NCBI GenBank assembly: GCA_037893245.1
Contig: JBAIAA010000452.1
Span: 558,001-622,000 of the forward strand
Origin: Crossaster papposus
Lineage: Eukaryota > Echinodermata > Asteroidea > Velatida > Solasteridae
Direction: 5' to 3'
DNA length: 64,000 nt
Part shown: positions 1-33,776 of the stretch, piece by piece
How the letters are laid out: each line of letters begins with the position of its first letter
Position numbering within the stretch: the stretch's first letter is position 1
Notes under the pieces: model-generated
Databases searched by the model: none
The model's input: only the letters and a program-made list of their open reading frames with translations
Told to the model about the DNA's origin: nothing
Made by a program: the position numbers and the translations under genes

Positions 1-28
1 TCCCCGCCCACAAATAAGGGAATGAAGG

Positions 29-120
29 AAAGCATGCCCCGGGAAGGGGCTGGGTGTTAGGAGATAGAGGGGGGGCCTCCAGGAATGGCAAAATTAGCAA
101 TTTGACCCGGGGCATGCTTT
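29..120. repeat. 15-bp perfect inverted repeat inside each 199-bp unit (example unit)
   Basis: The arm AAAGCATGCCCCGGG at 29-43 is the exact reverse complement of CCCGGGGCATGCTTT at 106-120, with about 61-62 bp between them. The pair recurs in nearly every unit of both arms; an occasional unit carries one substitution, such as GCATGCTCCGGG near 1430. Each unit could therefore form a GC-rich stem with a loop of about 61 nt as single-stranded DNA or RNA, or a cruciform under supercoiling. The arms also contain GCATGC and CCCGGG. The geometry resembles a very short terminal-inverted-repeat element of about 91 bp, but no target-site duplication is visible around it (flanks GAAGG and GTTAG). Confidence 0.9.
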
Positions 121-1168
121 GTTAGTATTTTATTTCGATTTTCTGAAAATGTTAACGTTAACACACGCGTTTCAAATGCGCCATAGGTTTGTGCACACAA
201 TCCCCGCCCACAAATAAGGGCCTGAAGGAAAGCATGCCCCGGGAAGGGACTGGGTGTTAGGAGATAGAGGGGGGCCTCCAGAAATGGCAAAATTAGCAAT
301 TTGACCCCGGGCATGCTTTGTTAGTATTTTATTTCGATTTTCTGAAAATTGTAACGTTAACACACGCGTTTCAAATTCGCCATAGGTTTGTGCACACAAT
401 CCCCGCCCACAAATAAGGGCATGAAGGAAAGCATGCCCCGGGAAGGGGATGGGTGTTAGGAGATAGAGGGGGGCCTCCAGGAATGGCAAAATTAGCAATT
501 TGACCCGGGGCATGCTTTGTTAGTATTTTTTTTTCGATTTTCTGAAAATGTTAACGTTAACACACGCGTTTCAAATGCGCCATAGGTTTGTGCACACAAT
601 CCCCGCCCACAAATAAGGGCATGAAGGAAAGCATGCCCCGGGAAGGGGCTGGGTGTTAGGAGATAGAGGGGGGCCACCAGGAATGGCACAATTAGCAATT
701 TGACCCCGGGGCATGCTTTGTTAGTATTTTATTTCGATTTTCTGAAAATGTTAACGTTAACACACGCGTTTCAAATTCGCCATAGGTTTGTGCACACAAT
801 CCCCGCCCACAAATAAGGGCATGAAGGAAAGCATGCCCCGGGAAGGGGCTGGGTGTTAGGAGATAGAGGGGGGCCTCCAGGAATGGCAAAATTAGCAATT
901 TGACCCGGGGCATGCTTTGTTAGTATTTTATTTCGACCTTCTGAAAATTTTAACGTTAACACACGCGTTTCAAATTCGCCATAGGTTTGTGCACACAATC
1001 CCCGCCCACAAATAAGGGCCTGAAGGAAAGCATGCCCCGGGAAGGGACTGGGTGTTAGGAGATAGAGGGGGGCCTCCAGGAATGGCAAAATTAGCAATTT
1101 GACCCGGGGCATACTTTGTTAGTATTTTATTTCGATTTTCTGAAAATTTTAACGTTAACACACGCGTT

Positions 1169-3700
1169 TCAAATTCGCCATAGGTTTGTGCACACAATCC
1201 CCGCCCACAAATAAGGGCATGAAGGAAAGCATGCCCCGGGAAGGGGCTGGGTGTTAGGAGATAGAGGGGGGCCTCCAGGAATGGCAAAATTAGCAATTTG
1301 ACCCGGGGCATGCTTTGTTAGTATTTTTTTTCGATTTTCTGAACATTTTAACGTTAACACACGCGTTTCAAATTCGCCATAGGTGTGTGCACACAATCCC
1401 CGCCCACAAATAAGGGAATGAAGGAAAGCATGCTCCGGGAAGGGGCTGGGTGTTAGGAGATAGAGGGGGGCCTCCAGGAATGGCAAAATTAGCAATTTGA
1501 CCCGGGGCATGCTTTGTTAGTATTTTATTTCGATTTTCTGAAAATGTTAACGTTAACACACGCGTTTCAAATTCGCCATAGGTTTGTGCACACAATCCCC
1601 GCCCACAAATAAGGGCATGAAGGAAAGCATGCCCCGGGAAGGGGCTGGGTGTTAGGAGATAGAGGGGGGCCTCCAGGAATGGCAAAATTAGCAATTTGAC
1701 CCGGGGCATGCTTTGTTAGTATTTTATTTCGATTTTCTGAAAATTTTTACGTTAACACACGCGTTTCAAATTCGCCATAGGTTTGTGCACACAATCCCCG
1801 CCCACAAATAAGGGCATGAAGGAAAGCATGCCCCGGGAAGGGGCTGGGTGTTAGGAGATAGAGGGGGGCCTCCAGGAATGGCAAAATTAGCAATTTGACC
1901 CGGGGCATGCTTTGTTAGTATTTTATTTCGATTTTCTGAAAATGTTAACGTTAACACACGCGTTTCAAATTCGCCATAGGTTTGTGCACACAATCCCCGC
2001 CCACAAATAAGGGCATGAAGGAAAGCATGCCCCGGGAAGGGGCTGGGTGTTAGGAGATAGAGGGGGGCCTCCAGGAATGGCAAAATTAGCAATTTGACCC
2101 GGGGCATGCTTTGTTAGTATTTTATTTCGATTTTCTGGAAATTTTAACGTTAACACACGCGTTTCAAATTCGCCATAGGTTTGTGCACACAATCCCCGCC
2201 CACAAATAAGGGCCTGAAGGAAAGCATGCCCCGGGAAGGGACTGGGTGTTAGGAGATAGAGGGGGGCCTCCAAGAATGGCAAAATTAGCAATTTGACCCG
2301 GGGCATGCTTTGTTAGTATTTTATTTCGATTTTCTGAAAATTGTAACGTTAACACACGCGTTTCAAATTCGCCATAGGTTTGTGCACACAATCCCCGCCC
2401 ACAAATAAGGGCATGAAGGAAAGCATGCCCCGGGAAGGGGATGGGTGTTAGGAGATAGAGGGGGGCCTCCAGGAATGGCAAAATTAGCAATTTGACCCGG
2501 GGCATGCTTTGTTAGTATTTTTTTTTCGATTTTCTGAACATTTTAACGTTAACACACGCGTTTCAAATTCGCCATAGGTGTGTGCACACAATCCCCGCCC
2601 ACAAATAAGGGAATGAAGGAAAGCATGCCCCGGGAAGGGGCTGGGTGTTAGGAGATAGAGGGGGGCCTCCAGGAATGGCAAAATTAGCAATTTGACCCGG
2701 GGCATGCTTTGTTAGTATTTTATTTCGATTTTCTGAAAATGTTAACGTTAACACACGCGTTTCAAATGCGCCATAGGTTTGTGCACACAATCCCCGCCCA
2801 CAAATAAGGGCATGAAGGAAAGCATGCCCCGGGAAGGGGCTGGGTGTTAGGAGATAGAGGGGGGCCTCCAGGAATGGCACAATTAGCAATTTGACCCGGG
2901 GCATGCTTTGTTAGTATTTTATTTCGATTTTCTGAAAATTTTAACGTTAACACACGCGTTTCCAATTCGCCATATGTTTGTGCACACAATCCCCGCCCAC
3001 AAATAAGGGCCTGAAGGAAAGCATGCCCCGGGAAGGGGCTGGGTGTTAGGAGATAGAGGGGGGCCTCCAGGAATGGCAAAATTAGCAATTTGACCCGGGG
3101 CATGCTTTGTTAGTATTTTATTTCGATTTTCTGAAAATTGTAACGTTAACACACGCGTTTCAAATTCGCCATAGGTTTGTGCACACAATCCCCGCCCACA
3201 AATAAGGGCATGAAGGAAAGCATGCCCCGGGAAGGGGCTGGGTGTTAGGAGATAGAGGGGGGCCTCCAGGAATGGCAAAATTAGCAATTTGACCCGGGGC
3301 ATGCTTTGTTAGTATTTTTTTTCGATTTTCTGAACATTTTAACGTTAACACACGCGTTTCAAATTCGCCATAGGTGTGTGCACACAATCCCCGCCCACAA
3401 ATAAGGGAATGAAGGAAAGCATGCCCCGGGAAGGGGCTGGGTGTTAGGAGATAGAGGGGGGCCTCCAGGAATGGCAAAATTAGCAATTTGACCCGGGGCA
3501 TGCTTTGTTAGTATTTTATTTCGATTTTCTGAAAATGTTAACGTTAACACACGCGTTTCAAATTCGCCATAGGTTTGTGCACACAATCCCCGCCCACAAA
3601 TAAGGGCATGAAGGAAAGCATGCCCCGGGAAGGGGCTGGGTGTTAGGAGATAGAGGGGGGCCTCCAGGAATGGCAAAATTAGCAATTTGACCCGGGGCAT
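1169..3700 (+). repeat. Partial ten-unit higher-order periodicity (~1,991 bp) in the 199-bp array
   Basis: Marker units recur ten units apart. The GAACATTTTAACG-bearing unit followed by a unit with AGGTGTGTGCACAC at 1169-1709 matches the pair at 3160-3700 (offset 1,991). The subtype at 172-513, with GGGATGGGTG and TTGTAACG, matches 2164-2505 (offset 1,992). The subtype with GGGCCTGAAGG at 771-1112 matches 2762-3103. Other units between these do not keep the phase, so this is a mosaic higher-order structure and not a clean one. Read from variants by eye. Confidence 0.55.
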
Positions 3701-6097
3701 GCTTTGTTAGTATTTTATTTCGATTTTCTGAAAATGTTAACGTTAACACACGCGTTTCAAATTCGCCATAGGTTTGTGCACACAATCCCCGCCCACAAAT
3801 AAGGGCATGAAGGAAAGCATGCCCCGGGAAGGGGCTGGGTGTTAGGAGATAAAGGGGGGCCTCCAGGAATGGCAAAATTAGCAATTTGACCCGGGGCATG
3901 CTTTGTTAGTATTTTATTTCGATTTTCTGAAAACTTTAACGTTAACACACGCGTTTCAAATTCGCCATAGGTTTGTGCACACAATCCCCGCCCACAAATA
4001 AGGGCATGAAGGAAAGCATGCCCCGGGAAGGGGCTGGGTGTTAGGAGATAGAGGGGGGCCTCCAGGAATGGCAAAATTAGCAATTTGACCCGGGGCATGC
4101 TTTGTTAGTATTTTATTTCGATTTTCTGAAAATGTTAACGTTAACACACGCGTTTCAAATTCGCCATAGGTTTGTGCACACAATCCCCGCCCACAAATAA
4201 GGGCATGAAGGAAAGCATGCCCCGGGAAGGGGCTGGGTGTTAGGAGATAGAGGGGGGCCTCCAGGAATGGCAAAATTAGCAATTTGACCGGGGGCATGCT
4301 TTGTTAGTATTTTATTTCGATTTTCTGAAAATTTTAACGTTAACACACGCGTTTCAAATTCGCTATAGGTTTGTGCACACAATCCCCGCCCACAAATAAG
4401 GGCATGAAGGAAAGCATGCCCCGGGAAGGGGCTGGGTGTTAGGAGATAGAGGGGGGCCTCCAGGAATGGCAAAATTAGCAATTTGACCCGGGGCATGCTT
4501 TGTTAGTATTTCATTTCGATTTTCTGAAAATTTTAACGTTAACACACGCGTTTCAAATTCGCCATATGTTTGTGCACACAATCCCCGCCCACAAATAAGG
4601 GCATGAAGGAAAGCATGCCCCGGGAAGGGGCTGGGTGTTAGGAGATAGAGGGGGGCCTCCAGGAATGGCAACATTAGCAATTTGACCCGGGGCATGCTTT
4701 GTTAGTATTTTATTTCGATTTTCTGAAAATTTTAACGTTAACACACGCGTTTCAAATTCGCCATAGGTTTGTGCACACAATCCCCGCCCACAAATAAGGG
4801 CATGAAGGAAAGCATGCCCCGGGAAGGGGCTGGGTGTTAGGAGATAGAGGGGGGCCTCCAGGAATGGCAAAATTAGCAATTTGACCCGGGGCATGCTTTG
4901 TTAGTATTTTATTTCGATTTTATGAAAATTTTAACGTTAACACACGCGTTTCAAATTCGCCATAGGTTTGTGCACACAATCCCCGCCCACAAATAAGGGC
5001 ATGAAGGAAAGCATGCCCCGGGAAGGGGCTGGGTGTTAGGAGATAGAGGGGGGCCTCCAGGAATGGCAAAATTAGCAATTTGACCCGGGGCATGCTTTGT
5101 TAGTATTTTATTTCGATTTTCTGAAAATTTTAACGTTAACACACGCGTTTCAAATTCGCCATATGTTTGTGCACACAATCCCCGCCCACAAATAAGGGCA
5201 TGAAGGAAAGCATGCCCCGGGAAGGGGCTGGGTGTTAGGAGATAGAGGGGGGCCTCCAGGAATGGCAACATTAGCAATTTGACCCGGGGCATGCTTTGTT
5301 AGTATTTTATTTCGATTTTCTGAAAATTTTAACGTTAACACACGCGTTTCAAATTCGCCATAGGTTTGTGCACACAATCCCCGCCCACAAATAAGGGCAT
5401 GAAGGAAAGCATGCCCCGGGAAGGGGCTGGGTGTTAGGAGATAGAGGGGGGCCTCCAGGAATGGCAAAATTAGCAATTTGACCCGGGGCATGCTTTGTTA
5501 GTATTTTATTTCGATTTTCTGAAAATTTTAACGTTAACACACGCGTTTCAAATTCGCCATAGGTTTGTGCACACAATCCCCGCCCACAAATAAGGGCATG
5601 AAGGAAAGCATGCCCCGGGAAGGGGCTGGGTGTTAGGAGATAGAGGGGGGCCTCCAGGAATGGCAAAATTAGCAATTTGACCCGGGGCATGCTTTGTTAG
5701 TATTTTATTTCGATTTTCTGAAAATTGTAACGTTAACACACGCGTTTCAAATTCGCCATAGGTGTGTGCACATAATCCCCGCCCACAAATAAGGGCATGA
5801 AGGAAAGCATGCCCCGGGAAGGGGCTGGGTGTTAGGAGATAGAGGGGGGCCTCCAGGAATGGCAAAATTAGCAATTTGACCCGGGGCATGCTTTGTTAGT
5901 ATTTTATTTCGATTTTCTGAAAACTTTAACGTTAACACACGCGTTTCAAATTCGCCATAGGTTTGTGCACACAATCCCCGCCCACAAATAAGGGCATAAA
6001 GGAAAGCATGCCCCGGGAAGGGGCTGGGTGTTAGGAGATAGAGGGGGGCCTCCAGGAATGGCAAAATTAGCAATTTGACCCGGGGCATGCTTTGTTA

Positions 6098-6342
6098 ACG
6101 TTAAAGTTAACGTTAACATTTTCAGAAAATCGAAATAAAATACTAACAAAGCATGCCCCGGGTCAAATTGCTAATTGTGCCATTCCTGGTGGCCCCCCTC
6201 TATCTCCTAACACCCAGCCCCTTCCCGGGGCATGCTTTCCTTCATGCCCTTATTTGTGGGCGGGGATTGTGTGCACAAACCTATGGCGCATTTGAAACGC
6301 GTGTGTTAACGTTAACATTTTCAGAAAATCGAAATAAAATAC
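6098..6342. other. Asymmetric centre of the 199-bp inverted repeat
   Basis: The left arm runs normally to CATGCTTTGTTA at 6097, where GTATTTTATTTCG is expected. It continues instead as ACGTTAAAGTTAACGTTAACATTTTCAG, which is satellite in the opposite orientation. The mirror axis is near 6220: 6097 pairs with 6343, the left unit 5747-6088 pairs with 6352-6693, and 5548-5889 pairs with 6551-6892. The 245 bases between are unpaired and contain one extra inverted unit. That unit belongs to a rare class (ATTGTGCC plus GGTGGCCC) otherwise seen near 665-700 and 9355-9375. The breakpoint shares TGTTA between the two possible templates and lies within TTAACGTTAA, itself a palindrome. Confidence 0.9.
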
Positions 6343-9300
6343 TAACAAAGCATGCCCCGGGTCAAATTGCTAATTTTGCCATTCCTGGAGCCCCCCCTCT
6401 ATCTCCTAACACCCAGCCCCTTCCCGGGGCATGCTTTCCTTTATGCCCTTATTTGTGGGCGGGGATTGTGTGCACAAACCTATGGCGAATTTGAAACGCG
6501 TGTGTTAACGTTAAAGTTTTCAGAAAATCGAAATAAAATACTAACAAAGCATGCCCCGGGTCAAATTGCTAATTTTGCCATTCCTGGAGGCCCCCCTCTA
6601 TCTCCTAACACCCAGCCCCTTCCCGGGGCATGCTTTCCTTCATGCCCTTATTTGTGGGCGGGGATTATGTGCACACACCTATGGCGAATTTGAAACGCGT
6701 GTGTTAACGTTACAATTTTCAGAAAATCGAAATAAAATACTAACAAAGCATGCCCCGGGTCAAATTGCTAATTTTGCCATTCCTGGAGGCCCCCCTCTAT
6801 CTCCTAACACCCAGCCCCTTCCCGGGGCATGCTTTCCTTCATGCCCTTATTTGTGGGCGGGGATTGTGTGCACAAACCTATGGCGAATTTGAAACGCGTG
6901 TGTTAACGTTAACATTTTCAGAAAATCGAAATAAAATACTAACAAAGCATGCCCCGGGTCAAATTGCTAATTTTGCCATTCCTGGAGGCCCCCCTCTATA
7001 TCCTAACACCCAGCCCCTTCCCGGGGCATGCTTTCCTTCATGCCCTTATTTGTGGGCGGGGATTGTGTGCACAAACCTATGGCGAATTTGAAACGCGTGT
7101 GTTAACGTTAAAATTTTCAGAAAATCGAAATAAAATACTAACAAAGCATGCCCCGGGTCAAATTGCTAATTTTGCCATTCCTGGAGGCCCCCCTCTATCT
7201 CCTAACACCCAGCCCCTTCTCGGGGCATGCTTTCCTTCATGCCCTTATTTGTGGGCGGGGATTGTGTGCACAAACCTATGGCGAATTTGAAACGCGTGTG
7301 TTAACGTTAACATTTTCAGAAAATCGAAATAAAATACTAACAAAGCATGTCCCGGGTCAAATTGCTAATTTTGCCATTCCTGGAGGCCCCCCTCTATCTC
7401 CTAACACCCAGCCCCTTCCCGGGGCATGCTTTCCTTCATGCCCTTATTTGTGGGCGGGGATTGTGTGCACAAACCTATGGCGAATTTGAAACGCGTGTGT
7501 TAACGTTAAAATTTTCAGAAAATCGAAATAAAATACTAACAAAGCATGCCCCGGGTCAAATTGCTAATGTTGCCATTCCTGGAGGCCCCCCTCTATCTCC
7601 TAACACCCAGCCCCTTCCCGGGGCATGCTTTCCTTCATGCCCTTATTTGTGGGCGGGGATTGTGTGCACAAACATATGGCGAATTTGAAACGCGTGTGTT
7701 AACGTTAACATTTTCAGAAAATCGAAATAAAATACTAACAAAGCATGCCCCGGGTCAAATTGCTAATTTTGCCATTCCTGGAGGCCCCCCTCTATCTCCT
7801 AACACCCAGCCCCTTCCCGGGGCATGCTTTCCTTCATGCCCTTATTTGTGGGCGGGGATTGTGTGCACAAACCTATGGCGAATTTGAAACGCGTGTGTTA
7901 ACGTTAAAATTTTCATAAAATCGAAATAAAATACTAACAAAGCATGCCCCGGGTCAAATTGCTAATTTTGCCATCCCTGGAGGCCCCCCTCTATCTCCTA
8001 ACACCCAGCCCCTTCCCGGGGCATGCTTTCCTTCATGCCCTTATTTGTGGGCGGGGATTGTGTGCACAAACCTATGGCGAATTTGAAACGCGTGTGTTAA
8101 CGTTAAAATTTTCAGAAAATCGAAATAAAATACTAACAAAGCATGCCCCGGGTCAAATTGCTAATGTTGCCATTCCTGGAGGCCCCCCTCTATCTCCTAA
8201 CACCCAGCCCCTTCCCGGGGCATGCTTTCCTTCATGCCCTTATTTGTGGGCGGGGATTGTGTGCACAAACATATGGCGAATTTGAAACGCGTGTGTTAAC
8301 GTTAAAATTTTCAGAAAATCGAAATGAAATAATAACAAAGCATGCCCCGGGTCAAATTGCTAATTTTGCCATTCCTGGAGGCCCCCCTCTATCTCCTAAC
8401 ACCCAGCCCCTTCCCGGGGCATGCTTTCCTTCATGCCCTTATTTGTGGGCGGGGATTGTGTGCACAAACCTATGGCGAATTTGAAACGCGTGTGTTAACG
8501 TTAAAATTTTCAGAAAATCGAAATAAAATACTAACAAAGCATGCCCCGGGTCAAATTGCTAATTTTGCCATTCCTGGAGGCCCCCCTCTATCTCCTAACA
8601 CCCAGCCCCTTCCCGGGGCATGCTTTCCTTCATGCCCTTATTTGTGGGCGGGGATTGTGTGCACAAACCTATGGCGAATTTGAAACGCGTGTGTTAACGT
8701 TAACATTTTCAGAAAATCGAAATAAAATACTAACAAAGCATGCCCCGGGTCAAATTGCTAATTTTGCTATTCCTGGAGGCCCCCCTCTATCTCCTAACAC
8801 CCAGTCCCTTCCCGGGGCATGCTTTCCTTCAGGCCCTTATTTGTGGGCGGGGATTGTGTGCACAAACCTATGGCGAATTTGAAACGCGTGTGTTAACGTT
8901 AAAATTTTCAGAAGGTCGAAATAAAATACTAACAAAGCATGCCCCGGGTCAAATTGCTAATTTTGCCATTCCTGGAGGCCCCCCTCTATCTCCTAACACC
9001 CAGTCCCTTCCCGGGGCATGCTTTCCTTCAGGCCCTTATTTGTGGGCGGGGATTGTGTGCACAAACCTATGGCGAATTTGAAACGCGTGTGTTAACGTTA
9101 AAATTTTCAGAAGGTCGAAATAAAATACTAACAAAGCATGCCCCGGGTCAAATTGCTAATTTTGCCATTCCTGGAGGCCCCCCTCTATCTCCTAACACCC
9201 AGCCCCTTCCCGGGGCATGCTTTCCTTCATGCCCTTATTTGTGGGCGGGGATTGTGTGCACAAACCTATGGCGAATTTGAAACGCGTGTGTTAACGTTAA

Positions 9301-10400
9301 CATTTTAAGAAAATCGAAATAAAATACTAACAAAGCATGCCCCGGGGTCAAATTGCTAATTGTGCCATTCCTGGTGGCCCCCCTCTATCTCCTAACACCC
9401 AGCCCCTTCCCGGGGCATGCTTTCCTTCATGCCCTTATTTGTGGGCGGGGATTGTGTGCACAAACCTATGGCGCATTTGAAACGCGTGTGTTAACGTTAA
9501 CATTTTCAGAAAATCGAAATAAAATACTAATAAAGCATGCCCCGGGTCAAATTGCTAATTTTGCCATTCCTGGAGGTCCCCCCCCCCTATCTCCTAACAC
9601 CCAGCCCCTTCCCGGGGCATGCTTTCCTTCATTCCCTTATTTGTGGGCGGGGATTGTGTGCACACACCTATGGCGAATTTGAAACGCGTGTGTTAACGTT
9701 AAAATGTTCAGAAAATCGAAAAAAAAATACTAACAAAGCATGCCCCGGGTCAAATTGCTAATTTTGCCATTCCTGGAGGCCCCCCTCTATCTCCTAACAC
9801 CCAGCCCCTTCCCGGGGCATGCTTTCCTTCATGCCCTTATTTGTGGGCGGGGATTGTGTGCACAAACCTATGGCGAATTTGAAACGCGTGTGTTAACGTT
9901 ACAATTTTCAGAAAATCGAAATAAAATACTAACAAAGCATGCCCCGGGTCAAATTGCTAATTTTGCCATTCCTGGAGGCCCCCCTCTATCTCCTAACACC
10001 CATCCCCTTCCCGGGGCATGCTTTCCTTCATGCCCTTATTTGTGGGCGGGGATTGTGTGCACAAACCTATGGCGAATTGGAAACGCGTGTGTTAACGTTA
10101 AAATTTTCAGAAAATCGAAATAAAATACTAACAAAGCATGCCCCGGGTCAAATTGATAATTTTGCCATTTCTGGAGGCCCCCCTCTATCTCCTAACACCC
10201 AGTCCCTTCCCGGGGCATGCTTTCCTTCAGGCCCTTATTTGTGGGCGGGGATTGTGTGCACAAACCTATGGCGCATTTGAAACGCGTGTGTTAACGTTAA
10301 CATTTTCAGAAAATCGAAATAAAATACTAACAAAGCATGCCCCGGGTCAAATTGCTAATTTTGCCATTCCTGGAGGCCCCCCCTCTATCTCCTACACCCA
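6343..10400 (-). repeat. 199-bp satellite array, right (inverted) arm
   Basis: About 20 units of the satellite at 1-6097, reverse-complemented. Private variants are shared in mirrored order with the left arm. CCTTTATGCCC (near 6438) mirrors GGGCATAAAGG (near 5995). GGGATTATGTGCAC (near 6661) mirrors the left unit near 5772. The GCTAATGTTGCC units at 7560 and 8160 mirror GGCAACATTAGC near 5265 and 4667. Between 6551 and 7347 the right arm has three units where the left has one, so the axis sum shifts by 398 bp. Further out, the two GAAGGTCG units (near 8912 and 9112) correspond to a single one near 937 on the left. The arm ends at 10400 inside a unit (CCTACACCCA), joined directly to the 31-bp satellite. 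Confidence 0.96.
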
Positions 10401-13400
10401 GTAAAGGGAAAGAAGTGTGCATACGAAATATGTAAAGGGAAAGAAGTGTGCATAAGAAATATGTAAAGGGAAAGAAGTGTGCATAATAAATATGTAAAGG
10501 GAAAGAAGTGTGCATAAGAAATATGTAAAGGGAAAGAAGTGTGCATAAGAAATATGTAAAGGGAAAGAAGTGTGGATAAGAAATAAACACATGATGTGGG
10601 AACAAGCCCTCGAGTTAAATATGTAAAGGGAAAGAAGTGTGCATAAGAAATATGTAAAGGGAAAGAAGTGTGCATAAGAAATATGTAAAGGGAAAGAAGT
10701 GTGCATAAGAAATATGTAAAGGGAAAGAAGTGTGCATAAGAAATATGTAAAGGGAAAGAAGTGTGCATAAGAAATATGTAAAGGGAAAGAAGTGTGCATA
10801 AGAAATATGTAAAGGGAAAGAAGTGTGCATAAGAAATAAACACATGATGTCGAAACAAGCCCTCGAGTTAAATATGTAAAGGGAAAGAAGTGTGCATAAG
10901 AAATATGTAAAGGGAAAGAAGTGTGCATAAGAAATATGTAAAGGGAAAGAAGTGTGCATAAGAAATATGTAAAGGGAAAGAAGTGTGCATAAGAAATATG
11001 TAAAGGGAAAGAAGTGTGCATAAGAAATATGTAAAGGGAAAGAAGTGTGCATAAGAAATATGTAAAGGGAAAGAAGTGTGCATAAGAAATATGTAAAGGG
11101 AAAGAAGTGTGCATAAGAAATATGTAAAGGGAAAGAAGTGTGCATAAGAAATATGTAAAGGGAAAGAAGTGTGCATACAAAAATATGTAAAGGGAAAGAA
11201 GTGTGCATAAGAAATAAACACATGATGTGGGAACAAGCCCTCGAGTTAAATATGTAGAGGGAAAGAAGTGTGCATAAGAAATATGTAAAGGGAAAGAAGT
11301 GTGCATAAGAAATATGTAAAGGGAAAGAAGTGTGCATAAAAAATATGTAAAGGGAAAGAAGTGTGCATAAGAAATATGTAAAGGGAAAGAAGTGTGCATA
11401 AGAAATATGTAAAGGGAAAGAAGTGTGCATAAGAAATATGTAAAGGGAAAGAAGTGTGCATAAGAAATAAACACATGATGTCGAAACAAGCCCTCGAGTT
11501 AAATATGTAAAGGGAAAGAAGTGTGCATAAGAAATATGTAAAGGGAAAGAAGTGTGCATAAGAAATATGTAAAGGGAAAGAAGTGTGCATAAGAAATATG
11601 TAAAGGGAAAGAAGTGTGCATAAGAAATATGTAAAGGGAAAGAAGTGTGCATAAGAAATATGTAAAGGGAAAGAAGTGTGCATAAGAAATATGTAAAGGG
11701 AAAGAAGTGTGCATAAGAAATATGTAAAGGGAAAGAATTGTGCATACGAAATAAACACATGATGTCGAAACAAGCCCTCGAGTTAAATATGTAAAGGGAA
11801 AGAAGTGTGCATAAGAAATATGTAAAGGGAAAGAAGTGTGCATAAGAAATATGTAAAGGGAAAGAAGTGTGCATAAGAAATATGTAAAGGGAAAGAAGTG
11901 TGCATAAGAAATATGTAAAGGGAAAGAAGTGTGCATAAGAAATATGTAAAGGGAAAGAAGTGTGCATAAGAAATATGTAAAGGGAAAGAAGTGTGCATAA
12001 GAAATATGTAAAGGGAAAGAAGTGTGCATAAGAAATATGTAAAGGGAAAGAAGTGTGCATAAGAAATATGTAAAGGGAAAGAAGTGTGCATAAGAAATAT
12101 GTAAAGGGGAAGAAGTGTGCATAAGAAATATGTAAAGGGAAAGAAGTGTGCATAAGAAATATGTAAAGGGAAAGAAGTGTGCATAAGAAATATGTAAAAG
12201 GAAAGAAGTGTGCATAAGAAATATGTAAAGGGAAAGAAGTGTGCATAAGAAATATGTAAAGGGAAAGAAGTGTGCATAAGAAATATGTAAAGGGAAAGAA
12301 GTGTGCATAAGAAATATGTAAAGGGAAAGAAGTGTGCATAAGAAATATGTAAAGGGAAAGAAGTGTGCATAAGAAATATGTAAAGGGAAAGAAGTGTGCA
12401 TAAGAAATATGTAAAGGGAAAGAAGTGTGCATAAGAAATATGTAAAGGGAAAGAAGTGTGCATAAGAAATATGTAAAGGGAAAGAAGTGTGCATAAGAAA
12501 TATGTATAGGGAAAGAAGTGTGCATAAGAAATAAACACATGATGTGGGAACAAGCCCTCGAGTTAAATATGTAAAGGGAAAGAAGTGTGCATAAGAAATA
12601 TGTAAAGGGAAAGAAGTGTGCATAAGAAATATGTAAAGGGAAAGAAGTGTGCATAAGAAGTGTGCATAAGAAATATGTAAAGGGAAAGAAGTGTGCATAA
12701 GAAATATGTAAAGGGAAAGAAGTGTGCATAAGAAATATGTAAAGGGAAAGAAGTGTGCATAAGAAATATGTAAAGGGAAAGAAGTGTGCATAAGAAATAT
12801 GTAAAGGGAAAGAAGTGTGCATAAGAAATATGTAAAGGGAAAGAAGTGTGCATAAGAAATATGTAAAGGGAAAGAAGTGTCCATAAGAAATATGTAAAGG
12901 GAAAGAAGTGTGCATAAGAAATATGTAAAGGGAAAGAAGTGTGCATAAGAAATATGTAAAGGGAAAGCAGTGTGCATAAGAAATAAACACATGATGTGGG
13001 ATCAAGCCCTCGAGTTAAATATGTAAAGGGAAAGAAGTGTGCATAAGAAATATGTAAAGGGAAAGAAGTGTGCATAAGAAATATGTAAAGGGAAAGAAGT
13101 GTGCATAAGAAATATGTAAAGGGAAAGAAGTGTGCATAAGAAATATGTAAAGGGAAAGAAGTGTGCATAAGAAATAAACACATGATGTGGGAACAAGCCC
13201 TCGAGTTAAATATGTAAAGGGAAAGAAGTGTGCATAAGAAATATGTAAAGGGAAAGAAGTGTGCATAAGAAATATGTAAAGGGAAAGAAGTGTGCATAAG
13301 AAATATGTAAAGGGAAAGAAGTGTGCATAAGAAATATGTAAAGGGAAAGAAGTGTGCATAAGAAATAAACACATGATGTGGGAACAAGCCCTCGAGTTAA

Positions 13401-16400
13401 ATATGTAAAGGGAAAGAAGTGTGCATAAGAAATATGTAAAGGGAAAGAAGTGTGCATAAGAAATATGTAAAGGGAAAGAAGTGTGCATAAGAAATATGTA
13501 AAGGGAAAGAAGTGTGCATAAGAAATATGTAAAGGGAAAGAAGTGTGCATAAGAAATATGTAAAGGGAAAGAAGGGTGCATAAGAAATATGTAAAGGGAA
13601 AGAAGTGTGCATAAGAAATATGTAAAGGGAAAGAAGTGTGCATAAGAAATATGTAAAGGGAAAGAAGTGTGCATAAGAAATATGTAAAGGGAAAGAAGTG
13701 TGCATAAGAAATATGTAAAGGGAAAGAAGTGTGCATAAGAAATATGTAAAGGGAAAGAAGTGTGCATAAGAAATAAACACATGATGTGGGAACAAGCCCT
13801 CGAGTTAAATATGTAAAGGGAAAGAAGTGTGCATAAGAAATAATAAAGGGAAAGAAGTGTGCATAAGAAATAATAAAGGGAAAGAAGTGTGCATAAGAAA
13901 TAAACACATGATGTGGGAACAAGCCCTCGAGTTAAATATGTAAAGGGAAAGAAGTGTGCATAAGAAATATGTAAAGGGAAAGAAGTGTGCATAAGAAATA
14001 TGTAAAGGGAAAGAAGTGTGCATAAGAAATATGTAAAGGGAAAGAAGTGTGCATAAGAAATATGTAAAGGGAAAGAAGTGTGCATAAGAAATAAACACAT
14101 GATGTCGAAACAAGCCCTCGAGTTAAATATGTAAAGGGAAAGAAGTGTGCATAAGAAATATGTAAAGGGAAAGAAGTGTGCATAAGAAATATGTAAAGGG
14201 AAAGAAGTGTGCATAAGAAATATGTAAAGGGAAAGAAGTGTGCATAAGAAATATGTAAAGGGAAAGAAGTGTGCATAAGAAATATGTAAAGGGAAAGAAG
14301 TGTGCATAAGAAATATGTAAAGGGAAAGAAGTGTGCATAAGAAATATGTAAAGGGAAAGAAGTGTGCATAAGAAATATGTAAAGGGAAAGAAGTGTGCAT
14401 AAGAAATATGTAAAGGGAAAGAAGTGTGCATAAGAAATATGTAAAGGAAAAGAAGTGTGCATAAGAAATATGTAAAGGGAAAGAAGTGTGCATAAGAAAT
14501 ATGTAAAGGGAAAGAAGTGTGCATAAGAAATATGTAAAGGGAAAGAAGTGTGCATAAGAAATATGTAAAGGGAAAGAAGTGTGCATAAGAAATATGTAAA
14601 GGGAAATAAGTGTGCATAAGAAATATGTAAAGGGAAATAAGTGTGCATAAGAAATATGTAAAGGGAAAGAAGTGTGCATAAGAAATATGTAAAGGGAAAG
14701 AAGTGTGCATAAGAAATATGTAAAGGGAAAGAAGTGTGCATAAGAAATATGTAAAGGGAAAGAAGTGTGCATAAGAAATATGTAAAGGGAAAGAAGTGTG
14801 CATAAGAAATATGTAAAGGGAAAGAAGTGTGCATAAGAAATATGTAAAGGGAAAGAAGTGTGCATAAGAAATATGTAAAGGGAAAGAAGTGTGCATAAGA
14901 AATATGTAAAGGGAAAGAAGTGTGCATAAGAAATATGTAAAGGGAAAGAAGTGTGCATAAGAAATATGTAAAGGGAAAGAAGTGTGCATAAGAAATAAAC
15001 ACATGATGTCGGGACAAGCCCTCGAGTTAAATATGTAAAGGGAAAGAAGTGTGCATAAGAAATAATAAAGGGAAAGAAGTGTGCATAAGAAATATGTAAA
15101 GGGAAAGAAGTGTGCATAAGAAATATGTAAAGGGAAAGAAGTGTGCATAAGAAATATGTAAAGGGAAAGAAGTGTGCATAAGAAATATGTAAAGGGAAAG
15201 AAGTGTGCATAAGAAATATGTAAAGGGAAAGAAGTGTGCATAAGAAATATGTAAAGGGAAAGAAGTGTGCATAAGAAATATGTAAAGGGAAAGAAGTGTG
15301 CATAAGAAATATGTAAAGGGAAAGAAGTGTGCATAAGAAATATGTAAAGGGAAAGAAGTGTGCATAAGAAATATGTAAAGGGAAAGAAGTGTGCATAAGA
15401 AATATGTAAAGGGAAAGAAGTGTGCATAAGAAATATGTAAAGGGAAAGAAGTGTGCATAAGAAATATGTAAAGGGAAAGAAGTGTGCATAAGAAATATGT
15501 AAAGGGAAAGAAGTGTGCATAAGAAATATGTAAAGGGAAAGAAGTGTGCATAAGAAATATGTAAAGGGAAAGAAGTGTGCATAAGAAATATGTAAAGGGA
15601 AAGAAGTGTGCATAAGAAATATGTAAAGGGAAAGAAGTGTGCATAAGAAATATGTAAAGGGAAAGAAGTGTGCATAAGAAATATGTAAAGGGAAAGAAGT
15701 GTGCATAAGAAATAAACACATGATGTGGGAACAAGCCCTCGAGTTAAATATGTAAAGGGAAAGAAGTGTGCATAAGAAATATGTAAAGGGAAAGAAGTGT
15801 GCATAATAAATATGTAAAGGGAAAGAAGTGTGCATAAGAAATATGTAAAGGGAAAGAAGTGTGCATAAGACATATGTAAAGGGAAAGAAGTGTGCATAAG
15901 AAATATGTAAAGGGAAAGAAGTGTGCATAAGAAATATGTAAAGGGAAAGAAGTGTGCATAAGAAATATGTAAAGGGAAAGAAGTGTGCATAAGAAATATG
16001 TAAAGGGAAAGAAGTGTGCATAAGAAATATGTAAAGGGAAAGAAGTGTGCATAAGAAATATGTAAAGGGAAAGAAGGGTGCATAAGAAATATGTAAAGGG
16101 AAAGAAGTGTGCATAAGAAATATGTAAAGGGAAAGAAGTGTGCATAAGAAATATGTAAAGGGAAAGAAGTGTGCATAAGAAATATGTAAAGGGAAAGAAG
16201 TGTGCATAAGAAATATGTAAAGGGAAAGAAGTGTGCATAAGAAATATGTAAAGGGAAAGAAGTGTGCATAAGAAATAAACACATGATGTGGGAACAAGCC
16301 CTCGAGTTAAATATGTAAAGGGAAAGAAGTGTGCATAAGAAATAATAAAGGGAAAGAAGTGTGCATAAGAAATAATAAAGGGAAAGAAGTGTGCATAAGA

Positions 16401-18452
16401 AATAAACACATGATGTGGGAACAAGCCCTCGAGTTAAATATGTAAAGGGAAAGAAGTGTGCATAAGAAATATGTAAAGGGAAAGAAGTGTGCATAAGAAA
16501 TATGTAAAGGGAAAGAAGTGTGCATAAGAAATATGTAAAGGGAAAGAAGTGTGCATAAGAAATATGTAAAGGGAAAGAAGTGTGCATAAGAAATAAACAC
16601 ATGATGTCGAAACAAGCCCTCGAGTTAAATATGTAAAGGGAAAGAAGTGTGCATAAGAAATATGTAAAGGGAAAGAAGTGTGCATAAGAAATATGTAAAG
16701 GGAAAGAAGTGTGCATAAGAAATATGTAAAGGGAAAGAAGTGTGCATAAGAAATATGTAAAGGGAAAGAAGTGTGCATAAGAAATATGTAAAGGGAAAGA
16801 AGTGTGCATAAGAAATATGTAAAGGGAAAGAAGTGTGCATAAGAAATATGTAAAGGGAAAGAAGTGTGCATAAGAAATATGTAAAGGGAAAGAAGTGTGC
16901 ATAAGAAATATGTAAAGGGAAAGAAGTGTGCATAAGAAATATGTAAAGGGAAAGAAGTGTGCATAAGAAATATGTAAAGGGAAAGAAGTGTGCATAAGAA
17001 ATATGTAAAGGGAAAGAAGTGTGCATAAGAAATATGTAAAGGGAAAGAAGTGTGCATAAGAAATATGTAAAGGGAAAGAAGTGTGCATAAGAAATATGTA
17101 AAGGGAAAGAAGTGTGCATAAGAAATATGTAAAGGGAAATAAGTGTGCATAAGAAATATGTAAAGGGAAAGAAGTGTGCATAAGAAATATGTAAAGGGAA
17201 AGAAGTGTGCATAAGAAATATGTAAAGGGAAAGAAGTGTGCATAAGAAATATGTAAAGGGAAATAAGTGTGCATAAGAAATATGTAAAGGGAAAGAAGTG
17301 TGCATAAGAAATATGTAAAGGGAAAGAAGTGTGCATAAGAAATATGTAAAGGGAAAGAAGTGTGCATAAGAAATAAACACATGATGTCGGGACAAGCCCT
17401 CGAGTTAAATATGTAAAGGGAAAGAAGTGTGCATAAGAAATAATAAAGGGAAAGAAGTGTGCATAAGAAATATGTAAAGGGAAAGAAGTGTGCATAAGAA
17501 ATATGTAAAGGGAAAGAAGTGTGCATAAGAAATATGTAAAGGGAAAGAAGTGTGCATAAGAAATATGTAAAGGGAAAGAAGTGTGCATAAGAAATATGTA
17601 AAGGGAAAGAAGTGTGCATAAGAAATATGTAAAGGGAAAGAAGTGTGCATAAGAAATATGTAAAGGGAAAGAAGTGTGCATAAGAAATATGTAAAGGGAA
17701 AGAAGTGTGCATAAGAAATATGTAAAGGGAAAGAAGTGTGCATAAGAAATATGTAAAGGGAAAGAAGTGTGCATAAGAAATATGTAAAGGGAAAGAAGTG
17801 TGCATAAGAAATAAACACATGATGTGGGAACAAGCCCTCGAGTTAAATATGTAAAGGGAAAGAAGTGTGCATAAGAAATATGTAAAGGGAAAGAAGTGTG
17901 CATAAGAAATATGTAAAGGGAAAGAAGTGTGCATAAGAAATATGTAAAGGGAAAGAAGTGTGCATAAGAAATATGTAAAGGGAAAGAAGTGTGCATAAGA
18001 AATATGTAAAGGGAAAGAAGTGTGCATAAGAAATATGTAAAGGGAAAGAAGTGTGCATAAGAAATATGTAAAGGGAAAGAAGTGTGCATAAGAAATATGT
18101 AAAGGGAAAGAAGTGTGCATAAGAAATATGTAAAGGGAAAGAAGTGTGCATAAGAAATATGTAAAGGGAAAGAAGTGTGCATAAGAAATAAACACATGAT
18201 GTGGGAACAAGCCCTCGAGTTAAATATGTAAAGGGAAAGAAGTGTGCATAAGAAATATGTAAAGGGAAAGAAGTGTGCATAATAAATATGTAAAGGGAAA
18301 GAAGTGTGCATAAGAAATATGTAAAGGGAAAGAAGTGTGCATAAGACATATGTAAAGGGAAAGAAGTGTGCATAAGAAATATGTAAAGGGAAAGAAGTGT
18401 GCATAAGAAATATGTAAAGGGAAAGAAGTGTGCATAAGAAATATGTAAAGGG
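10401..18452 (+). repeat. 31-bp satellite array I with 36-bp linkers
   Basis: About 235 monomers of 31 bp. On the plus strand each begins ATGTAAAGGGAAAGAAG and ends GTGCATAAGAAAT; composition is 15 A, 6 T, 9 G, 1 C. Blocks are separated by a 36-bp linker containing ACACATGATG and CTCGAG. Linkers are anchored at the last A of CAAGCCC's CAA and run from anchor minus 20 to anchor plus 15. Anchors: 10605, 10858, 11236, 11489, 11773, 12553, 13005, 13196, 13387, 13795, 13922, 14113, 15017, 15734, 16297, 16424, 16615, 17395, 17833, 18210. Three linker classes occur: GTGGGAAC, GTCGAAAC (10858, 11489, 11773, 14113, 16615) and GTCGGGAC (15017, 17395); 13005 has GTGGGATC. A partial monomer of about 14 bp lies near 12656. 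The array ends in ATGTAAAGGGATATACTC at 18452. Confidence 0.97.
13571..18452 (+). repeat. ~2.5-kb tandem segmental duplication within array I
   Basis: Linkers at 13795, 13922 and 14113 recur at 16297, 16424 and 16615, each 2,502 bp later and with the same class order (GTGGGAAC, GTGGGAAC, GTCGAAAC). The rare monomer GAAGGGTGCA at 13571 recurs at 16073, also 2,502 bp later. Both copies contain a 127-bp block with two AATAATAAAG monomers. Later in the unit the offset falls to 2,378 (linkers 15017 and 17395, four monomers fewer), then becomes 2,476 (linkers 15734 and 18210; AAGACATATG near 15871 and 18347). The second copy is cut by the island at 18452. Confidence 0.88.
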
Positions 18453-19148
18453 ATATACTCTGCGTTCGTACACGGACGCTTTATCAGAAATAGGTTTTAG
18501 TGCATTCTTTGGTGGTAGTTGGACACACGGACGATGGCCCTTGTCAGTGCGTCCACGAAGTTGTCCATTGCTTTCCTCGAGCTTTTCCCCATTGTGGAAA
18601 GGCCGGTGTTAATAAATAGATTCTGTCGCCCCTCGTATGCATTCGGTTTATCAGCGCGCTTAGCAATTCTTCCCCCTACACCATACCCCCTGTTTTTGCC
18701 CGCTTTTGATGTATATATAGTTTGCACACTTCATTGTTCTTTCTAGTGCTTAGTAATTTGATTATTTCATATATATATATTATGTGCGCATACTATTTAG
18801 TGTTTTTGTGTATTTATCTTCCTTTCACGAGCCATGGTGCAACGGGCGTACAAGACTTCAATGTGGATTGTGGGCGACCTTGTCGTCAATTGGACCTGCC
18901 GAATTGCAGTTATTACACCGGAGTGAGCAGATCTGCACGCGTTAGCGACGCTGCACCCGGGAGACACAGCCATCGAACCCAGACTAAATAACATTTAATG
19001 TCGATTGTACCGACCTGGGAGGTTTTGCCGCACACATACAGAACTGATGAATGCTATCAATCACTATTATTAATTTGTGCCACTTCTCTCATGCTTTTAT
19101 TATTTAACAAAAAAATGGGCCTATTTGGCGGCGGTCATGAATGACCGT
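18453..19148. other. Left part of the non-satellite island
   Basis: Single-copy in this window. It follows a 31-bp monomer broken after ATGTAAAGGGA. It contains an (AT)6 run at 18769-18780 and a TATATATA string at 18712-18719. Short open frames overlap on both strands: minus 18497-18727 (76 codons, with the stretch TMGKSSRKAMDNFVDALTRA) and plus 18519-18746. Both look moderately protein-like, but neither has an initiation context, codon bias or family I can identify. Minus 18797-18994 and plus 18722-18991 overlap each other and are weaker. This may be a fragment of a decayed mobile element or host gene; I assign no function. Confidence 0.5.
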
Positions 19149-19349
19149 TTGGCGGAATTGCATTCGGGACGCCGTCATAGGCCCCAATAACTTAACTTGA
19201 CACCAACGTAAGCCATGCCCAGTATACGAATTTTAAGTTCAAATGTAATGATAATTTTTGCGGCTTCCTGTTTAACCTTAATTGTAATTTACGGCTATGT
19301 TAAGGCGGCTATGTTAACAGTACGTTTTTAGTTTCGCTATAGCGTTATC

Positions 19350-19935
19350 ACGGTTATTGGGTTTTATGTTATTATGGTAAATAACTAAAACATGATTGAT
19401 ACGTTTTAATTTGCGATTGGTACAATGGCGCTATCATTGGGTTTTCGTAAAGTACGGAGACATGATAGTATTGCAACTATTATTGGGTTTTGTGTTATTT
19501 TGGTAAATAGCCAAAACATGATAGTGATACGTTTTAATTTTGCGATCGGTGCACTGGCAATCCGGCATTATTATTGGGTTTTCGTAAAGTACGGAGACAT
19601 GATAATGTTGGCATCGCTATTATCGGGTTTTGTGTTATTTTGGTAAATAACTAAAACATGATGGCGATCATGTGCACTGGCAGGCAGTCTGGCATTATTA
19701 TTGGGTTTTCGTAAAATACGGAGACATGATAATGTTGGCATCGCTATTATCGGGTTTTAGGTTATTTTGGTAAATAACTAAAACATGATAGTGATACGTT
19801 TAATTTCGCGATCGGTGCGCTGGCAGTCTGTCATTATTATTGGGTTTTCGTAAAGTGCGGAGACATGATAATGTTGGCATCGTTATTATTGGGTTTTATG
19901 TTATTTGGGTAAATAACTAAAACAGGATAGCGATA
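19350..19935 (+). repeat. Degenerate ~137-bp tandem repeat, copy 1
   Basis: GGGTTTTCGTAAA recurs at 19439, 19576, 19703 and 19842 (spacings 137, 127, 139), preceded by a partial unit from about 19353. Each unit has two related halves. One reads TTATTGGGTTTTCGTAAAG followed by CGGAGACATGATA; the other reads TTATTGGGTTTTGTGTTA, then GGTAAATAACTAAAACATGAT and a GCGATCGGTGC segment. Both halves share TTATTGGGTTTT, GTAAA and CATGAT, so the ~137-bp unit probably arose from an older duplicated half-unit. Chance frames such as plus 19425-19646 lie inside the repeat and are not considered genes. Confidence 0.88.
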
Positions 19936-19959
19936 CTCGCGCACCGATTCGAAGCAAAC

Positions 19960-20396
19960 TTATATACTTTGTAATATGCTATTGTAATATACTGCTAGTT
20001 GGAAATAATAATATGTTTTGAGATCAACCTGGCAATAAACTGCTTCGGCCTTACGATACAAAAAGAAATTAAACTCTTTAGCCAATGCATGAATATTTTG
20101 TGAGGTCCTGTCGCTTGGGATGATAACCACTTTTAAGACATCAAGCTTAAAAGAATTTATCATCCCGAAGACAGATGGGTATGCGGGATCTCGTCCAATG
20201 CCTCTTTCCCACGCTACATAGAGGTCACTGGGGTATGGGGACGCTGTTTTATGGCCCTGCGGTTAAAACAGACAAGGCCAGGTATACAGCCATAATCTTG
20301 ACGACTGGTCAGAATATCACTTTGTCGCAGCAGTTTAAGCCAGGAGGACGTTTGTTTGCTATTGCTATTCAGCAGAGTAATTATCTGTTCTTGTAA
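19960..20396 (-). pseudogene. Possible decayed coding remnant with a frameshift
   Basis: Two minus-strand open frames abut with a short overlap. Frame A (20396 down to a stop at 20214) encodes about 60 residues including SSWLKLLRQSDIL and YGCIPGLVCFNRRA. Frame B is open from 20262 down to a stop at 19960 and includes LYVAWERGIGRDP, NSFKLDVLKVV and AKEFNFFLYRKAEAVYCQ. Read in sequence they resemble one globular protein segment of about 140 residues broken by a +1 or -1 shift in 20214-20262, near the C-rich CCCCATACCCCAG. No start, splice signals or known motif is evident. The opposite strand (20175-20396, 73 codons) is also open, so the coding strand is unproven. I recognise no family; it could be a last exon of a host gene or a transposon fragment. 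Confidence 0.33.
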
Positions 20397-20622
20397 TTAA
20401 TTTCGAAGCCCGCCGCCTCCCCTGTTTACTGCCACCTGTTTCCTACATAAGTTTAATTAATTGTGGTTTATCTGCCATTGGGACCCAATTCTGGAGTTAC
20501 ACAATACTCGGTTGCCGTTAGGAGCCGGAGGGGAATTTCCTCCTGTTTTCCTCTTTTAAAAGTGTCGAAGCAAAGTTTAGAGGTTTTGCAGGAGTTTTTC
20601 GCCCTTCCCTGAATTGAGTTTC
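20397..20622. other. Island spacer between remnant and duplication junction
   Basis: About 225 bp with no credible open frame. It contains a pyrimidine-rich stretch (TTTCCTCCTGTTTTCCTCTTTT, around 20535-20557) followed by AAAAG. On its own this is too weak to call a splice acceptor or polyadenylation signal. It ends at the tandem-duplication joint TTTC|TTGGCGG at 20622/20623. Confidence 0.6.
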
Positions 20623-20823
20623 TTGGCGGAATTGCATTCGGGACGCCGTCATAGGCCCCAATAACTTAACTTGACACCAACGTAAGCCATGCCCAGTATA
20701 CGAATTTTAAGTTCAAATGTAATGATAATTTTTGCGGCTTCCTGTTTAACCTTAATTGTAATTTACGGCTATGTTAAGGCGGCTATGTTAACGGTACGTT
20801 TTTAGTTTCGCTATAGCGTTATC

Positions 20824-21409
20824 ACGGTTATTGGGTTTTATGTTATTATGGTAAATAACTAAAACATGATTGATACGTTTTAATTTGCGATTGGTACAAT
20901 GGCGCTATCATTGGGTTTTCGTAAAGTACGGAGACATGATCGTATTGCAACTATTATTGGGTTTTGTGTTATTTTGGTAAATAGCCAAAACATGATAGTG
21001 ATACGTTTTAATTTTGCGATCGGTGCACTGGCAATCCGGCATTATTATTGGGTTTTCGTAAAGTACGGAGACATGATAATGTTGGCATCGCTATTATCGG
21101 GTTTTGTGTTATTTTGGTAAATAACTAAAACATGATGGCGATCATGTGCACTGGCAGGCAGTCTGGCATTATTATTGGGTTTTCGTAAAATACGGAGACA
21201 TGATAATGTTGGCATCGCTATTATCGGGTTTTAGGTTATTTTGGTAAATAACTAAAACATGATAGTGATACGTTTAATTTCGCGATCGGTGCGCTGGCAG
21301 TCTGGCATTATTATTGGGTTTTCGTAAAGTGCGGAGACATGATAATGTTGGCATCGTTATTATTGGGTTTTATGTTATTTGGGTAAATAACTAAAACAGG
21401 ATAGCGATA
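20824..21409 (+). repeat. Degenerate ~137-bp tandem repeat, copy 2
   Basis: Same repeat as at 19350-19935, displaced by 1,474 bp. GGGTTTTCGTAAA landmarks fall at about 20913, 21050, 21177 and 21316. It differs from copy 1 at 20941 and 21305. It was carried along by the segmental duplication and not independently amplified. Confidence 0.88.
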
Positions 21410-21433
21410 CTCGCGCACCGATTCGAAGCAAAC

Positions 21434-21600
21434 TTATATACTTTGTAATATGCTATTGTAATATACTGCTAGTTGGAAATAATAATATGTTTTGAGATCA
21501 ACCTGGCAATAAACTGCTTCGGCCTTACGATACAAAAAGAAATTAAACTCTTTAGCCAATGCATGAATATTTTGTGAGGTCCTGTCGCTTGGGATGATAA
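21434..21600 (-). pseudogene. 3' end of the coding remnant, fused to satellite
   Basis: This is the duplicate of the last ~55 codons of frame B (19960-20126), with the same stop at 21434. Its upstream part is replaced by 31-bp satellite. Because the satellite minus strand is free of stops, the frame runs through the junction without interruption to about 21739, giving a chimeric open frame of 101 codons (...AHFFPF|IIPSDRTSQN...). This is a breakpoint by-product; nothing suggests it is expressed. Confidence 0.33.
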
Positions 21601-22420
21601 AGGGAAAGAAGTGTGCATAAGAAATATGTAAAGGGAAAGAAGTGTGCATAAGAAATATGTAAAGGGAAAGAAGTGTGCATAAGAAATATGTAAAGGGAAA
21701 GAAGTGTGCATAAGAAATAAACACATGATGTGGGAACAAGCCCTCGAGTTAAATATGTAAAGGGAAAGAAGTGTGCATAAGAAATATGTAAAGGGAAAGA
21801 AGTGTGCATAAGAAATATGTAAAGGGAAAGAAGTGTGCATAAGAAATATGTAAAGGGAAAGAAGTGTGCATAAGAAATATGTAAAGGGAAAGAAGTGTGC
21901 ATAAGAAATAAACACATGATGTGGGAACAAGCCCTCGAGTTAAATATGTAAAGGGAAAGAAGTGTGCATAAGAAATATGTAAAGGGAAAGAAGTGTGCAT
22001 AAGAAATATGTAAAGGGAAAGAAGTGTGCATAAGAAATATGTAAAGGGAAAGAAGTGTGCATAAGAAATATGTAAAGGGAAAGAAGTGTGCATAAGAAAT
22101 AAACACATGATGTGGGAACAAGCCCTCGAGTTAAATATGTAAAGGGAAAGAAGTGTGCATAAGAAATATGTAAAGGGAAAGAAGTGTGCATAAGAAATAT
22201 GTAAAGGGAAAGAAGTGTGCATAAGAAATATGTAAAGGGAAAGAAGTGTGCATAAGAAATATGTAAAGGGAAAGAAGTGTGCATAAGAAATATGTAAAGG
22301 GAAAGAAGTGTGCATAAGAAATATGTAAAGGGAAAGAAGTGTGCATAAGAAATATGTAAAGGGAAAGAAGTGTGCATAAGAAATATGTAAAGGGAAAGAA
22401 GTGTGCATAAGAAATATGTA

Positions 22421-33400: not shown

Positions 33401-33776
33401 GTGTGCATAAGAAATATGTAAAGGGAAAGAAGTGTGCATAAGAAATATGTAAAGGGAAAGAAGTGTGCATAAGAAATATGTAAAGGGAAAGAAGTGTGCA
33501 TAAGAAATATGTAAAGGGAAAGAAGTGTGCATAAGAAATATGTAAAGGGAAAGAAGTGTGCATAAGAAATATGTAAAGGGAAAGAAGTGTGCATAAGAAA
33601 TATGTAAAGGGAAAGAAGTGTGCATAAGAAATATGTAAAGGGAAAGAAGTGTGCATAAGAAATATGTAAAGGGAAAGAAGTGTGCATAAGAAATATGTAA
33701 ATGGAAAGAAGTGTGCATAAGAAATATGTAAAGGGAAAGAAGTGTGCATAAGAAATAAACACATGATGTCGGGACA

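Follow-up and report, generated by a model that had tools for sequence, protein, structure and literature searches.

Nested four-arm mirror structure of a 199-bp satellite in Crossaster papposus, probably produced by fold-back inverted duplication

The DNA analyzed here is a stretch of 64,000 nt from the Crossaster papposus contig JBAIAA010000452.1 (C452:558001-622000; assembly GCA_037893245.1, 1.02 Gb in 1,841 contigs), referred to below as the window. Its left part consists of a satellite with a period of 199 bp, which runs in the forward orientation over positions 1-6097 and in the reverse orientation over 6106-10401, where a 31-bp satellite begins. All of our evidence is assembled contig sequence, and variants given as letters and numbers refer to positions in the satellite unit, whose numbering differs between our unit tables. 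When the two orientations were compared in the reverse-complement register with its axis at 6220, positions 5548-6097 and 6343-6892 differed at 1 of 550 sites, whereas each of eight other registers (i+j shifted in steps of 199) gave 8-14 mismatches. Two pairs of variants face each other across this axis, GGGCATAAAGG at 5992 with CCTTTATGCCC at 6438 and GCACATAATCC at 5768 with GGATTATGTGC at 6662, each found once in the window. These comparisons confirm the large mirrored palindrome with private variants that had been described in an earlier note on this DNA, and the spacer that it implied, 6098-6342, does measure 245 nt. The end points given there, 5548 and 6892, hold for the gap-free stretch, but they are not the limits of the mirror.

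Beyond 5548-6892, mirrored pairing of units continues as far as 10091-10289, near the array edge at 10401, with gaps of whole units. Outward from the junction, the shared order begins with G62A, T27G+C36T+T193C and T195G and, after two extra units on the right, proceeds through G24T+A133C, C186A, G24T+A133C and T174C. About 15 units on the left then have no partner on the right, after which A60C+G87A, T182C+T183C, T16G+T119A+A132C and others follow to the right-hand edge. Because private variants pair in mirrored order, two independent arrays that happen to face each other are ruled out. The earlier claim that an existing array segment was duplicated in inverted form is upheld by the mirrored variants, by the mirror register and by the unit-order scores given below.

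The structure extends well beyond the window. We examined the flanks at C452:428001-558000 and 622001-692000, mapping orientation in 500-base steps, and read four arms separated by three junctions in the order A(+) c1 B(-) c2 C(+) c3 D(-), followed by the 31-bp satellite, with c3 being the junction in the window (Table 1). The shortest single-orientation run is about 4.5 kb long and the longest at least 114 kb. The c3 region has a reverse-complement twin 22 kb upstream: its 614 nt at window 5761-6374 match the c1 region in reverse with 0 mismatches, which rules out a single simple inversion. The second inversion, c2, lies near C452:553.28k, and c1 and c3 mirror each other about it. Across 264 kb of C452, each of the four arms has both variant pairs once, and they occur nowhere else. 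Unit-order alignments, from which partial terminal units and spacer units were left out, were tested against shuffled unit order. B (55 units) against reversed C (53 units) scored 339.7, a value reached by 0 of 200 shuffles (maximum, 149.8; same-direction control, 109.5), and reversed A (the nearest 80 of 569 units) against B scored 340.5 (0 of 50 shuffles; maximum, 166.8; control, 118.3). The short arm D (20 units) scored 76.1 with reversed A (nearest 60 units; 0 of 200 shuffles; maximum, 53.5; control, 19.5) and 79.3 with reversed C (53 units, partly left of the window; 0 of 200 shuffles; maximum, 55.1; control, 29.5). From the reverse identity of c1 and c3, these alignments and the presence of the variant pairs once per arm, it follows that C-c3-D is the mirror of A-c1-B about c2, a palindrome of a palindrome.

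A second copy of this arrangement is present on another contig, C590. A search of the whole assembly with a 32-mer spanning c3, allowing up to two mismatches, returned at least four copies (counts for repeats are lower bounds), all exact, two on C452 and two on C590, in opposite orientation within each contig. Direct comparison of the two contigs placed c2 at C590:163,598-163,634, where the surrounding 567 nt are the exact reverse complement of C452 c2, and placed the border to the 31-bp satellite at 135.9 kb, where 227 nt are identical in reverse to window 10197-10423. Read backwards, C590 shows A' c1 B' c2 C' c3 D', beyond which the 31-bp satellite begins; this reading covers 131-200 kb apart from 175,001-190,028 (within B'), most of the contig on either side of that range being represented by samples. 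Arm lengths differ between C452 and C590: c1 and c2 are about 11 kb apart versus 28 kb, c2 and c3 about 11 kb versus about 14 kb, and D spans 4.3 kb versus about 13.6 kb for D'. The units beside the four junction copies agree except for single-unit gaps and point changes, and arm C additionally lacks two units. C71G beside G80A was seen in arm A (two units) and its C590 counterpart (one unit), and in no other arm stretch examined. In both contigs, c2 is adjoined on its C side by a unit with a 30-bp deletion; because the same deletion occurs twice in arm A (515.5k and 522.4k), this unit is shared by position and is not private. Since the junctions, c2 and the border are shared in the same order, and C71G is shared as well, it is very likely that both contigs derive from a single rearranged array, which they may represent as two haplotypes or as two loci. 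The four junction copies, together with c2 and the border on C590, indicate that the same older event underlies at least four copies, of which the window junction is one. The earlier interpretation was thus of the right kind but incomplete, for the junction that it described appears to be a secondary copy, and the junctions recur on C590.

Table 1. Features of the mirrored satellite array on C452 (window positions unless marked C452).
Feature	Position	Strand	Remarks
Arm A, 199-bp satellite (part examined)	C452 428-542 kb	+	
Arm B, 199-bp satellite	C452 542-553.5 kb	-	
Arm C, 199-bp satellite	C452 553.5-564 kb	+	
Arm D, 199-bp satellite	C452 564-568.5 kb	-	Followed by 31-bp satellite
Inner part of arm C	1..6097	+	Arm C begins left of the window, ~C452:553.28k
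Left mirrored arm adjoining junction	5548..6097	+	1/550 mismatches to 6343-6892
Stretch around c3	5761..6374		614 nt, identical to reverse complement of c1 region
Junction c3, 32-mer	6086..6117		4 copies found in assembly
Junction insertion, 8 nt, ACGTTAAA	6098..6105		Resembles adjoining GTTAACGTTAA(A/C) of the unit
Whole non-mirrored spacer	6098..6342		245 nt
Spacer unit, haplotype T16G T119A A132C T194G	6106..6304	-	No mirrored partner left of junction
Arm D in the window	6305..10400	-	Unit order fits reversed C and reversed A
Right mirrored arm adjoining junction	6343..6892	-	
Two arm D units without arm C partner	7101..7498	-	Like units at same place in A and B and beside both C590 junctions
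Hybrid unit, A60C G87A with G124A T188G	8693..8891	-	
Border of 199-bp array and 31-bp satellite	10383..10412		Breakpoint ~10401; 10197-10423 = reverse complement of C590 135.9k border
31-bp satellite	10401..64000	+	To at least C452:692k; again at 806.5-809k near contig end

Later change proceeded by whole units. For the two arm D units at 7101-7498, a deletion in C appears to be the simplest reading because like units are present in A, in B and beside both C590 junction copies. The hybrid unit at 8693-8891 likely marks the place where D, compared with D', has lost about 13 units. By the counts in the unit tables, one copy of D' exceeds D by about 16 units, and on C590 (136.0-149.4k) D' contains a tandem duplication of about 31 units with no counterpart in D. 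Divergence was measured over matched units, with lowercase letters for C590 arms and d standing for the inner 32 units of D' only. It fell between 0.2 and 0.5% in 31 of 36 comparisons. Within C452 the values were 0.223% (B/C), 0.267% (A/C), 0.344% (A/B), 0.402% (A/D) and 0.414% (C/D), and c/d within C590 gave 0.419%. Between contigs they were 0.206% (A/a), 0.232% (C/c), 0.157% (B/b_outer) and 0.503% (D/d). For A, B and C, the counterpart on the other contig is one of the closer arms without standing apart from the rest; D differs by 0.40% or more from seven of the eight other arm stretches. At about 0.3% divergence there are too few sites per arm for a tree of units.

Taken together, we think that the array probably arose through two fold-back inverted duplications, one nested in the other and both leaving a non-mirrored loop, followed by gain and loss of whole units. 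In the first turn, synthesis through arm A would have folded back at c1, leaving about 0.44 kb as a loop, and then run back along the array to produce the reverse copy B. A second fold-back at c2, with a loop of about 1.5-2.3 kb, would then have copied B, c1 and A in reverse to give C, c3 and D, so that c3 (window 6086-6117) would be the reverse complement of c1. The reverse copy would end in the 31-bp satellite, and gain or loss of whole units and point changes would later have made the arms imperfect. The second arm is a mirror copy rather than an independent array, and a non-mirrored spacer lies between the arms both at c1/c3 and at c2, as fold-back predicts. The c1/c3 loop consists of a T16G-T115A-A128C unit and, in the three copies other than the one in the window, an A129C T188G unit as well, which brings it to about 444 nt. 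The unit tables put the c2 loop at about 1.5 kb on C452 and about 2.3 kb on C590. We read the spacer unit at 6106-6304 as a putative fold-back loop, and the 8-nt insertion may be a re-copied piece of the unit. The c1 insertion is like neighbouring GTTAACGTTAAC and is accompanied by about 4 nt in common (TAAC/GTTA), and c2 shows a 2-nt overlap, GC; both traces were identified partly by reading, and their chance level was not computed. If c2 is one inverted duplication, c1 is older than c2 because c1 has mirrored copies, with gene conversion from arm to arm as a less simple alternative. The structure is most likely what DNA repair or replication left behind; we infer fold-back or template switching over sister exchange or breakage-fusion-bridge cycles, as well as the direction of synthesis and the lack of a function.

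Several observations weigh against this account. Microhomology of 2-4 nt is weak, and the unit itself holds inverted repeats, including one of 15 bp in the monomer, whose predicted folding is not unusual (z -1.65). C/a divergence (0.188%) is below that of both A/a and C/c, and the divergences neither order the events nor prove two separate episodes. Because they fail to order events, a single episode with two turns is possible, as is gene conversion from arm to arm. The outer flank does not fit either. On C590, a breakpoint predicted at about 410.11 kb is not there; the 199-bp array continues over 410,061-410,190 and gives way to the 31-bp satellite at an outer border somewhere between 410,190 and 410,301. 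Since this outer border is in a different unit phase from the inner one, the mirror image excludes the outer flank, and an extended version in which it took in the outer 31-bp border was rejected. Nor does the account supply a step by which D was joined to the 31-bp satellite.

Other processes can also give inverted arms. Two rounds of breakage-fusion-bridge are expected to leave a nested order, and here there are four arms with c1 in two mirrored copies and c2 in one. A broken satellite end would have fused to its sister twice, taking the arms from one to two to four, before the last end was joined to the 31-bp satellite. Nested fold-backs with arm doubling are present (A c1 B c2 C c3 D), and D stops abruptly at the other satellite. 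Such a cycle, however, requires a terminal break and a rescue joining, there is no sign of a lost chromosome end here, and the short loops at both turns suit fold-back at least as well; we therefore regard it as unlikely. Of the two routes named in the earlier note, fold-back is the better one, and dicentric breakage is at most compatible with the four-arm pattern. Inverted amplification of the ODIRA type, with copies in alternating orientation and two recurring junctions, seems less plausible still. The + - + - copies agree with it, as do the two types of junction, of which one occurs twice on each contig, and palindromic junctions are alike in both, but the model as outlined in PMC10766186 begins with an inverted triplication, whereas here there are four arms, the last of which ends in another satellite.

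Two further explanations remain. A maintained macro-dyad structure with a role in chromatin, as proposed for Tribolium, would be in keeping with retention on both contigs despite drift in arm length. Shared descent accounts for that retention, though; the junction was found on two contigs only (a lower bound), and among the nine contigs with at least two of the best 40 full-length unit matches, only C452 and C590 carry both orientations. We consider this role quite improbable. Inverted joins in satellite DNA are a known assembly risk, and with assembled sequence as the only evidence, fold-back reads or a wrong join might be suspected. The arms differ, however, by point changes and whole units, and C590, with different arm lengths, has the same inversion junctions and border down to the base. 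Because the same rearrangement is present on this second contig, the nested mirror is very probably real; we rejected an artefact as the principal explanation on the C590 evidence and give it hardly any credence.

The structure is nearest in kind to the macro-dyad symmetries of the Tribolium madens satellites TmSat1 and TmSat2. The sections of PMC13081366 available to us describe orientation switches with palindrome-like subarrays of several to tens of kb, near-identical inversion sites that recur, and defined borders to a second satellite. They report thousands of inversion-site sequences, predominantly with two subarrays per array, and state that such symmetries are documented only in Tribolium. 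By comparison with that account, the C. papposus array likewise has kilobase-scale inverted subarrays of one satellite, a recurring junction and a border to a second satellite, but its arms are nested and four in number, at least four junction copies were found on two contigs, and the unit haplotypes show that these copies go back to one event. There was no sign of inversion sites shared by many arrays across the genome, c1/c3 having been found four times on 2 of 1,841 contigs with up to two mismatches (lower bounds; other inversion sites were not searched for). Human fold-back inverted duplications, as presented in PMC3907307, have a non-duplicated spacer with short inverted sequences at its edge; they arise in patients as nonrecurrent rearrangements, which in some cases include terminal deletions or translocations. 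The non-mirrored spacer here is similar, with a 2-4-nt trace at its edge of uncomputed chance level, but the rearrangement here lies inside satellite DNA and occurred twice, nested. Primate alpha-satellite arrays also switch orientation, in some cases polymorphically, and contain large inversions or inversion blocks; duplication mirrored unit by unit is not described for them in the portion of PMC11062924 that we consulted. No nested four-arm satellite palindrome was named in the titles and abstract beginnings of the open-licence literature searched, and no relevant paper on the 199-bp satellite was found by title and abstract.

Large inverted satellite arrangements have been proposed to matter for centromeres partly through conserved inversion sites. 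A single junction, which a second inversion mirrored and which both contigs carry, accounts for all four copies found here, and this shows how copying alone can produce inversion-site conservation. We offer only as a doubtful generalization that, outside Tribolium, a satellite array bordering a second satellite has a nested four-arm mirror kept on two contigs as arm lengths drift, and that inversion sites which recur and look "conserved" can be copies inherited from a single fold-back event. If true, this would give macro-dyad symmetries a testable neutral origin or, if the structure is selected, point to an architecture that forms (peri)centromeres. Haplotypes followed unit by unit let this history be read, and the approach may provide a way to tell inheritance from selection in other genomes.

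Other repeats surround the array. In the parts of C590 sampled, the 31-bp satellite lies to either side of the 199-bp array (before 135.9k and after 410.3k), inverted from one side to the other, and the two borders are in different 199-bp phases. Higher-order organization is seen in the 31-bp satellite of the window (10401-64000), where 31-bp runs are interrupted by a variant containing AACACATGATGT...CAAGCCCTCGAGTT. This satellite is also interrupted at 18454-21597 by a 3.1-kb insert of non-satellite DNA with two direct repeats of about 975 bp (~19149-20124 and ~20623-21598, extent by eye; the 300-nt part compared was 100% alike) and inner tandem repeats of about 127-139 bp; this insert is perhaps a non-autonomous mobile element. 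Farther upstream on C452, a third tandem repeat with a unit of about 85 bp by eye (CTCAATGGGCTCTATAGACC...) lies in the left part of the contig, in the samples at 1-2500 and at 40, 100 and 125 kb, and the 199-bp satellite is first met in the 150-kb sample.

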